A stretch of DNA of 64,000 nucleotides from assembly GCA_963082975.1 (NCBI GenBank), contig OY720344.1, positions 78,356,053 through 78,420,052 on the forward strand, given 5' to 3'. The notes beneath the pieces are model-generated. The model ran no database searches and was not told the DNA's origin. It was given only the letters and a program-made list of their open reading frames with translations. Shown here piece after piece: positions 41,708 through 62,132 of this stretch. The first letter of the stretch is position 1. Every line of letters starts with the position of its first letter. The stretch comes from Labia minor (taxonomy: Eukaryota; Arthropoda; Insecta; Dermaptera; Spongiphoridae). A program made the position numbers and the translations under genes.

Positions 41708-42775
41708 TGAAAAAGATACAAAATATCCTATATATATAGGTAGATAGTTTAATCTTTGTTTAAAGTATTAAAAATTGTCATGAAAATAATCAGTTTTAAT
41801 CAAATTATAAAGTTATTAAAATTTTTAAAAATAAATAACTATAAGGATATAAAAGTATAGGAATTTTGTATAAAATGAAAAATATTTTTTAGGTCCTGTG
41901 GTATGCTGTTTATATTGTCAAACTAATTTTACCAATGAGGATATTTTATCTAAACATTTAAAAAAGTGTATTCCGAAAAAAATATGTTCATTTTTAAAAT
42001 GGCAATTAAAATTCAAAAACAACATATTGAGTAATTCAAAGGAACATAAGGAGGAAAGAAATTATAAAAAATATTCTAAATCAAAATCAACTGTTTTAAA
42101 GACAAATGAATGTATCTATTGTAAAAAGAAATTTAGTTTAAAATATTCTTTAAAATCTCATTTGTTAAGTCATACAGGTGAAAAACCTTTTGAATGTAAT
42201 TTTTGAAATAAGAAATTTAATCAAAAATCTACTTTAACAACACATTTAATAATTCACAGAGGAAAAAAGCCTTTTGAATGTATCTATTGCAAAAAGAAAT
42301 TTAATCAAAAATCTACTTTAACAACACATCTATTAATACACACATGAGAAAAATCTTTTGAATGCTACTACTGTAAAAAGGATTTTAGTTGAAAATCTGA
42401 TTTAAATTCTCATATATTTTCACGTACAGATGAAAAGGCTTTTGAATGTATTAATTGTAAAAAGAAATTTAATCGAAAAGCTCATTTAGATAAACATTTA
42501 TTAATTCATACAGGAGAAAAACCTTTTGAATGTATCTATTGAAAAAATAAATTTAATCAAAAGTCTACTTTAACAACACATTTAATAATTCGAACAGGAG
42601 AAAAGCCTTTTGGATGTAACTATTATAAGAAAAAATTTAATAAAAAATGTATTTTAATTAAACATTTATTAACTCATACAGATGAACAACCTTTGAATGT
42701 AACTATTGTAAGAAAAAATTTAATCAAAAATCTATTTTAATATATCATAGGGCTGATAAGCATTTGATTTTAACA
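41708..42775 (+). pseudogene. Z1: decayed C2H2 zinc-finger gene
   Basis: The first-exon remnant (41708-41739) reads EKDTKYPIYI then G at a GTAGAT donor; its ATG is not visible. Exon 2 from 41893 (TTTTTTAG acceptor) encodes [36 protein letters not shown] and a Lys-rich linker. About eight C2H2 finger remnants follow. In-frame stops begin in the second finger (TGA for the second Cys at 42204) and recur in later fingers, and the last finger is frameshifted. It belongs to the family of Z2-Z6. Its first two fingers are nearly identical in DNA to fingers 4-5 of Z4. Confidence 0.85.
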
Positions 42776-42966
42776 TAATTGTAACCCTAGTCCTCTAATA
42801 TTTATATATTTATCTTAAAGCCATATAATATAATAATACATAATAAGTATTTTTGTTAATTTAAAACTCGCTTATGATTGAACAATTATGAATGATATTA
42901 TTTATAAATTAAATTTAATTCAAAATATTATTTTAATAAATATTTAATGTTTCATACAAATGTTAA

Positions 42967-43040
42967 AACTTTTGAATGTAATTTTTACAAAAGGGAATTT
43001 ATAGGCAATGGATATTTATTTACAAAAGGTTAAAAAATAA
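42967..43040 (+). pseudogene. Remnant of a lost zinc-finger gene head
   Basis: 42967-43003 reads TFECNFYKREFIG, a finger remnant. 43008-43040 (ATGGATATTTATTTACAAAA) matches the first-exon remnant of Z3 at 46092. The DNA after it (43060-43165) matches 49080-49185, the sequence just before Z3 exon 2. This seems to be an older copy of the Z3 head without its intron insertions. Confidence 0.55.
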
Positions 43041-43274
43041 ATATCATTATTAAAATAATTATTTTCTTTATTGGATTATTAATATTAAAAAATTATCATT
43101 TACAATTAATAAATTAATATATTGTTTTCTATAGTAGTGATTGGTATTTCAGCAGGTATATTTCGTTGCTATATTCAAGGCAGGAATTTGCAATCATTGC
43201 TCTGTTACGATTGGTCTGTGATTTATTTAATATATTAATTCTTTGGATAATTTATAAGTTTTAATTAATGTGTA

Positions 43275-44570
43275 ATGGATGTTAATACTTGGGAAGACAG
43301 GAAATATCCTATTTATATAGGTAATTTTGATTTTAGGCTATTTTTTGGTATAACAATTTTAAATTCTCATAATTTTTTAATATAATGAAACTTGTTTATA
43401 GGTCCTCTAGTGTGCTGTTTACATTGTCATACTAATTTTATCAATGAGGACTTTTTATCTAAACATTTAAAAAAGTGTATTCCGAAAGAAATATGTTCAT
43501 TATTAAAAACTCAATTAAAATTCAAAAAGAATATATTGAAAAATTCAGAAAAAAAAGAGGAGAGAAGTCATAAAAAATATACCAAATCAACTAATAGCAT
43601 TGTTAAGAAACATGAATGTACATATTGTAAAAAAAATTTTGGTGCAAAATCACATCTCAATACACATTTATTAACTCATACAGGAGAAAAGCCTTTTGAA
43701 TGTAATTATTGTAAAAAGAAATATAATCGAAAATCTAATTTAAATATTCATATATTAAAACATACGGGTGAAAAACCTTATGAATGTAATTTTTGTAAAA
43801 TGAAATTAACTACAAAATATCATTTAAATAAACATTTAATGATTCATACAGGTGAAAAATTTTTTGAATGTAATTTTTGCAATAAGAAATTTAATCAAAA
43901 ATCTAATTTAACAACACATTTAATAATTCATACAGGAGAAAAACTTTTTGAATGTAACTATTGTAAAGAGAAATTTAGATTAAAATGTTCTTTAAAATCT
44001 CATTTGTCAAGTCATACAGGTGAAAAACCATTTGAATGTAATTATTGTACCAAACGATTTAATGTAAAATCTAGTTTAAATTTACATATATTAACTCATA
44101 CAGGGGAAAAACCTTTTGAGTGCATGTATTGTAAAAAGAATTTTTGTCGAAAATGTGATTTAAATATTCATATATTACAACATACGGGTGAAAAACCTTA
44201 TGAATGTAATTTTTGTAACATGAAATTTAATTCAAAATATTATTTTAATAAACATTTAATGATTCATACAGGAGAAAAATCTTTTGAATGTAGTTTTTGC
44301 CAAAAGAAATTTTATCAAAGATCCAATTTAAAAACACATATCAGGATTCATACAGGAGAAAAACCTTTTGAATGTAATTTTTGCGAAAAGAAATTTTATC
44401 AAAGAGGCAATCTAAAATCACATTTAAAGACTCATACAGAAGAAACTCCTTTTGAATGTAATTATTGTAAAAAGAATTTTAGTCAAATTTCTGATTTAAA
44501 TTCTCATTTATTGACACATACAGATGAAAGCCTTGTTAATGCAATTATTGTAAAAAGAAATTTAATGTAA
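43275..44570 (+). CDS. Z2: C2H2 zinc-finger protein, 11 fingers
   Basis: Exon 1 43275-43320 encodes MDVNTWEDRKYPIYI; an 81-bp phase-1 intron (GTAATT...TTATAG) follows; exon 2 43402-44570 gives 404 residues in all. The head [26 protein letters not shown] has C-x2-C...H-x4-C spacing, a C2HC-like zinc module. Eleven fingers of 28 residues with TGEKPFEC linkers follow. This predicts a nuclear DNA-binding regulator. Contact positions (-1, 2, 3, 6) vary while the frame is nearly constant. The last residues (ESLVNAIIVKRNLM) are a frameshifted twelfth finger, whose CNYCKKKFNVKNSFKSHLF frame continues past the stop. Z4 has the same shift, so it predates their duplication. No other effector domain is seen. 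Confidence 0.88.
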
Positions 44571-60294: not shown

Positions 60295-60525
60295 CGCAGC
60301 CGCTAGATGGTGCTGCAGGCGACAATGGTTGACTCTTCAGGCGCCCAATAGATAGCACCGCAAAAAACAGACCGCACATCAAATAGTACGTCTCCCTCCT
60401 CACAGGCCTTCCGAATTCCCTTCAATTTGAATAACAAACTCGCAGACAATTACACCCACCGACACCCACATACCATCCGTGTCCATACTGGTCCATACTA
60501 TCCGTAACAAACCCAATAAACATTG
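60295..60525 (+). repeat. Family G repeat, copy 4
   Basis: Direct-orientation match to 58950-59165 (GACTCTTCAGGCGCCCAATA, CAGGCCTTCCGAATTCCCT), 1.36 kb apart, within the spacer between Z5 and Z6. Confidence 0.6.
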
Positions 60526-60879
60526 TAGTAAATGTAAGTAAATTTTTTATTATTGAAATTATTTTATTTTTAATTAGGAATTATTTTTTATGTCGATTTA
60601 TTTAGAAATTAATTTTATATGAAAAAACACATTTTATTTTAAGTGTTATATTTTTTTTAAAAAAACAATCAATTTTTATTAATTTCAAAGTCTAATTAAA
60701 TTAATTTTTATCACAAGTAACTAATTAATGTCTTTTTATTTTATTCATCGTGGAAATTTCCTACAATTTCAAAATTAATTCATTTTAAATTATTATTTAA
60801 TTATGTTTGCAAGACAAATAAGATAACTTTTAGATTTTTTTTTTTGGTGAAAGATTAATAAATAAATTTCGTAATTTGA

Positions 60880-61120
60880 TTCTAAAATATTATTAAAATA
60901 AATATTTTTAATTTTATTTCGAAATTAAATAAAAATATTATAAAATATTTTAAATATAAAAAAATATTAATACATTTTCAATTAAAACAGAATGGAAAGA
61001 TGCAAAATGGATGACGTAGTTAGTGACGTCATATAAATTTTAATTGAGAAAAAACAAAGAAGATGAATTTTCCCGAGGCTGAAACCAATTCAGATAGATT
61101 TTTCTTTATAAAAATAATGT
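60880..61120 (+). repeat. Family A core fragment upstream of Z6
   Basis: Carries the ATTTTTAATTTTATTTCGAA core, two TGACG words (one the TGACGTCA palindrome, about 61023) and the TTTTTCTTTATAAA word. Hairpin head and GATAA tail are missing. Confidence 0.6.
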
Positions 61121-61364
61121 GTAAAAATGCAGAGCCTACTAGCAATGTTAAGCATAGACAAGCCTGCAGCGCTTAACTCAATTTCGGTTTCAATTCCCAC
61201 ATTTAAATGCCCGCCCCCGGTGTGTGGTTCGAGTCTTAGAGTGATGGTTTGTCGTCACCCCTGGTTTCTATATCACAGACAATCCTTATCTATTTTCAAG
61301 GGCGATAATACAAATATTTATTTTTGGATTCTTTGCTATTTACATAAGTTTTTATACCCATAAA

Positions 61365-62132
61365 ATGAATATTATTTCACAAGAAGACAGGAAATATCCA
61401 ATCTATATAGGTAAGATTGGGATGTAGTGTAATTTTAATATTATTTATTTACAAAACTTAAAAAAATAATTAAATTAATATTATATAGCGAATTTTGATT
61501 TTCATTTATTTTAGGTCCTCTTGTTAGTTGTTTTTATTGTCATACTAATTTTATCAATGAGGATTTTTTTATCTAAGCATTTAAGAAAATGTCTTCATAA
61601 AGAAATATGTTGTTTATTCAAAACTCAAATAAAATTTAAAAAAGATTTGCAAAATATCAATAATGACACAGAAGAAACAAAAATTGAAAAAGATACCACC
61701 ATCAAAATAAAAAATAATTATGAATGTAATTATTGTAAAAAGAAATTTAATCAAATGTCTAATTTAAAGGCTCATTTAAAAATTCATACCGGTGAAAAAC
61801 CTTTTGAATGTAACTTTTGTAAAAAGAAATTTAATCAAATGTCTAATTTAAAGGCTCATTTAAAAATTCATACAGGTGAAAAACCTTTCGAATGTCATCA
61901 TTGTAAAAAGAAATTTAATCAAAAACGTACTCTAGATTTTCATTTATTAATCCATACAGGTGAAAAACCTTTTGAATGTAATCAGTGTAAAAAGAAATTT
62001 AATCAAAAATCTAATTTAAATGCACATTTAATAATACATACAGGTGAAAAGCCATTTGAATGTCATTATTGTAAAAGGAAATTTAATTCAAAATTTATTT
62101 TAAAAAGGCATTTAGTAACTCATACAAGTTAA
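61365..62132 (+). pseudogene. Z6: zinc-finger gene with one frameshift, 5 fingers
   Basis: Exon 1 61365-61410 (MNIISQEDRKYPIYI), a 104-bp intron, exon 2 61515-62132. After GPLVSCFYCHTNFINED one extra T in a T run (about 61566-61572) shifts the frame and gives TAA at once; sister Z5 has one T fewer. Beyond it the frame is open: SKHLRKCLHKEICCLFKTQ, the acidic linker as in Z5, and five fingers. Fingers 1 and 2 (helix NQMSNLKAH) are tandem 84-bp copies. The shift may be a recent loss, a polymorphism or an assembly error; a downstream start could still give the fingers alone. Confidence 0.85.

Follow-up and report, generated by a model that had tools for sequence, protein, structure and literature searches.

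A zinc-finger gene family of about a thousand motif copies in the lesser earwig combines a conserved CCHC head with variable finger arrays

KRAB zinc-finger (KRAB-ZNF) genes combine an effector head with a variable C2H2 array, lie in clusters that turn over, and recruit a TRIM28-type corepressor. In cyprinid fish, excerpts of PMC10547256 describe FiNZ-ZNF genes (684 annotated, about 700 in zebrafish), whose module has no similarity to known domains, whose contact residues are among the most variable, with positive selection reported, and whose knock-down derepresses transposons. By the same account, fly ZAD genes seem to have no specific role in silencing transposons. Here we analyze a 64,000-nt stretch of the genome of the lesser earwig Labia minor (Dermaptera), C1:78356053-78420052 (the window), and the zinc-finger gene family found in it. 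By motif count, with broken copies included, this family has expanded to about 1000 copies. It is apparently undescribed: the literature searches brought up no paper about a zinc-finger expansion in earwigs, and the word zinc was absent from the earwig genome papers that were word-searched. Its head, lineage and scale within an insect appear to be new, although the kind of family (an effector head with a fast-evolving finger array) is already known.

The assembly comprises 604,477,936 bases (604.50 Mb in the excerpt of PMC11937785). C1, C2, C4, C5, C6, C9 and C10 are chromosomes 1, 2, 3, 4, 5, 6 and X, respectively, and C4 starts with a (CCGAA)n telomere, the repeat given for Labia minor (excerpts of PMC11829193). 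A DNA pattern for a 10-residue head motif, allowing up to two mismatches, matched 970 genomic places (498 + 472), and its reversed control 0 + 1. A pattern for KYPIYIG plus the splice donor matched 1125 places (593 + 532; control 8 + 5), an excess due in part to tandem copies of exon 1. Both totals are counts of motifs, with broken copies among them. For comparison, the zf-AD domain (PF07776) of ZAD, the usual counterpart in insects, has 15 matches in this genome. Querying the genome with a head of the window subfamily gave 1246 first-look candidates, of which the best 150 were scored (all E ≤ 3.6e-13); the same query with L058, a head from a different subfamily, produced 1293 candidates, and again the best 150 were scored (all E ≤ 1.3e-20). 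With 14 places common to both lists, there were 286 distinct scored places, which together covered all seven chromosomes.

Sixty stretches fetched around window-subfamily matches and 8 loci from the same search yielded 75 usable heads, 67 of them distinct, a sample biased toward good matches. For 44 of the 75, the most similar sampled head lay within 1 Mb (shuffled mean 5.8, maximum 15), in line with the local expansion suggested in the preliminary description of this DNA. Two members about 24 kb apart, L055 and L074 (C9:22112800-22138600), were identical over 1143 nt, and further exact pairs were L077/L078, L080/L081 and L075/L076. Such pairs may stem from a very recent duplication, from conversion, or from sequence duplicated in the assembly.

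A typical gene consists of a short exon 1 ending in KYPIYI, a short phase-1 intron (median 121 nt in the sampled genes), and an exon 2 that encodes a CCHC zinc-finger head, whose helix is predicted to be long, then a linker and about 10 C2H2 fingers. Exon 1 was located by a strict rule for 49 of the 75 heads and by a looser rule, which had no control, for 12; it was not found for 14. Measured from the first Met, the 49 strict cases comprised exons of 46 nt (30), 43 nt (16) and 40 nt (1), and 2 cases without a Met. The earlier observation is thus confirmed in part. The exon-2 frame reached at least 200 residues in 69 of the 75 members, and the number of finger motifs, head counted, had a median of 10 and a maximum of 20 (up to 19 C2H2 fingers besides the head). 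In the window, where exon 2 holds head and array together, family parts lie on the forward strand at 41694-42206, 43275-43320 (46 nt), 43402-44570, 49259-50247, 53930-53975 (46 nt), 54046-55301, 61365-61410 (46 nt) and 61515-62132, and on the reverse strand at 58750-58795 (46 nt) and 57763-58631. Some 20 kb beyond the window there are tandem repeats of the exon-1 motif, spaced 109 bp apart, first four (C1:78439220-78439570) and then two (78441087-78441219), as if exon 1 and its flanks had turned into a minisatellite near a head.

The head follows the pattern C-x2-C-x3-F-x5-L-x2-H-x3-C, a CCHC variant of the classical C2H2 finger. The C-x2-C-x12-H spacing noted previously is the same, with H-x3-C in place of the H-x4-C given there. 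The putative zinc ligands are invariant, the predicted fold is beta-beta-alpha, and the helix is predicted to extend as a stalk. Positions corresponding to base contacts hardly vary (Asn/Ser, Glu/Asp, Phe, Lys). As had been supposed, the head is neither KRAB nor the insect ZAD: the head tested had no match to the KRAB box, and the heads shown had none to zf-AD (PF07776). The heads are under purifying selection. The proportion of synonymous differences (pS) was 0.1-0.5 in 1354 of 2415 head pairs, the median ratio of nonsynonymous to synonymous divergence (dN/dS) was 0.31, and the nonsynonymous proportion (pN) exceeded pS in only 4 of 2366 pairs with pS of at least 0.1.

The arrays behave differently. 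Among 643 distinct fingers, the base-contact residues were the most variable positions. In recent paralogues, pN/pS was 0.05 for the zinc and core residues and 1.91 for the contact residues; in the set allowing up to 6 differences, the contact value was 1.75 (interval 1.28-2.58). Since the array is variable at base-touching positions and far less so elsewhere, members should bind different DNA. The earlier interpretation, which likened the family to fast-evolving KRAB- and ZAD-type families, is supported.

Like FiNZ-ZNF genes (hundreds of copies), the earwig genes have a short conserved N-terminal module, a long C2H2 array behind it, high copy number and variable contacts. The FiNZ module, as described in the excerpts of PMC10547256, is set apart by being 28 residues long, rich in Glu and encoded on its own exon upstream of the array exon, whereas the earwig head is a CCHC finger that shares exon 2 with the array and is preceded by an exon of 13-15 codons; the two families also come from different animal phyla. 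With KRAB-ZNF genes the earwig family shares a putative effector head, variable array, clustering and turnover (PMC10547256, in part), but differs in that this head is built as a helix-bearing zinc finger. Of the worked-out precedents found for such a head, the closest is BCL11B, whose atypical N-terminal CCHC finger multimerizes and is required for repression with NuRD (excerpt of PMC12127727). This finger (ZF0 of BCL11A/B) likewise has a beta-beta-alpha fold and stands ahead of C2H2 fingers; the likeness is one of finger type, with no specific sequence relation shown. The CCHC-type fingers of INSM1 and MOZ have the generic finger in common with the earwig head, but not the long helical extension. 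BCL11A/B is not known to be an expanded family.

With moderate confidence, we favor a family in which varied DNA-binding arrays are joined to a fixed, partner-binding or multimerizing repressive head and are directed mostly at transposable elements or other selfish DNA. The arrays would bind DNA of differing sequence from member to member, and the head would read no DNA. Its near-frozen contacts and predicted helical stalk suit one common protein interface or self-association, so that it may bind one fixed partner, multimerize as in BCL11B, or both, and recruit a repressive complex. The fingers would evolve to follow targets that themselves change, a scenario already proposed for KRAB-ZNF and FiNZ-ZNF genes. 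That silencing is recruited to transposons we infer from the BCL11B and FiNZ-ZNF parallels. In this respect the family seems to be an insect equivalent, of independent origin, to the mammalian KRAB zinc-finger genes used against genomic parasites.

Several results weigh against this reading. A first head model from five sequences was poor (predicted local distance difference test score 54.1) and did not yield the finger; with the later model, nearly all of the 50 Foldseek matches listed were zinc fingers, but none reached E ≤ 0.001. In the strictest set without a neighbor filter (29 of 125 aligned fingers, with no more than 3 differences outside the contacts), pN/pS at the contacts was 1.39 (bootstrap 0.78-3.42), indistinguishable from 1. 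The neighbor-filtered value was 2.94 (interval 1.70-4.37), but the filter itself lowers the denominator of this ratio; with the contact codons' own synonymous changes it was 1.69, from 5.6 changes and without an interval. Whole-finger exchange between arrays can also mimic diversifying selection.

Alternatively, the family may work like the Drosophila ZAD-ZNF genes, in heterochromatin, chromatin architecture or X-linked regulation (dosage, control of meiotic drive), with array diversification not driven by transposons. The precedent is a close one, an insect family with lineage-specific expansion and an N-terminal zinc-binding associated domain, as the earwig head putatively is, and since fly ZAD-ZNFs appear not to be transposon-specific (PMC10547256, in part), large zinc-finger families of insects are not necessarily aimed at transposons. 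Of the best 150 L058-head matches, 98 lay on the X chromosome, whose share of the assembly is 12.7%. No X excess, however, was seen for the window subfamily (17 of its best 150), and fast change of contact residues suits a moving target better than fixed architectural sites. We regard a ZAD-like role as unlikely. Still less probable is largely neutral amplification, in which unequal exchange grows the clusters, most copies are idle, and head conservation reflects recency and gene conversion; the synonymous divergence of the heads, their low dN/dS, the scarcity of pairs with pN above pS, and the gap between constrained cores and contacts above 1 all speak against it. That the head is simply the array's first finger in a degenerate state, functionless by itself, we consider very improbable, even though its alignment with classical fingers is in register and 50 of 65 heads weakly match zf-C2H2 (best E 0.0015; 14.6 bits in the member shown, cut-off 25.2).

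Elsewhere in the window, a mariner-like transposase remnant in overlapping frames lies at 8282-8807 (Transposase_1 and DDE_3 matches, both below cut-off). The reverse strand carries a weak match, below cut-off, to DUF1676, which we take to be the Osiris family, at 10057-10518, and a sugar-transporter exon at 16290-16646. A single long open frame at 36234-40094 encodes 1286 residues, rich in Lys and Glu and with Cys clusters, and has no Pfam match at E ≤ 0.01.

Taken further, and tentatively, earwigs may have independently invented a KRAB-like genome defense: a thousand-member repertoire in which a formerly DNA-reading finger became fixed as an effector or multimerization head, sibling fingers chase transposons, and one subfamily massed on the X is perhaps aimed at X-linked selfish DNA. 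Insects also possess PIWI-interacting RNAs. The best-known large zinc-finger families with effector heads are those of vertebrates (KRAB, FiNZ), and a thousand-copy earwig family in which the head is fixed and the contacts vary would make an independent insect origin of the arms race between zinc fingers and transposons directly testable. The head itself is a candidate for a new effector module, and its small size suits it to expression and structure solution.
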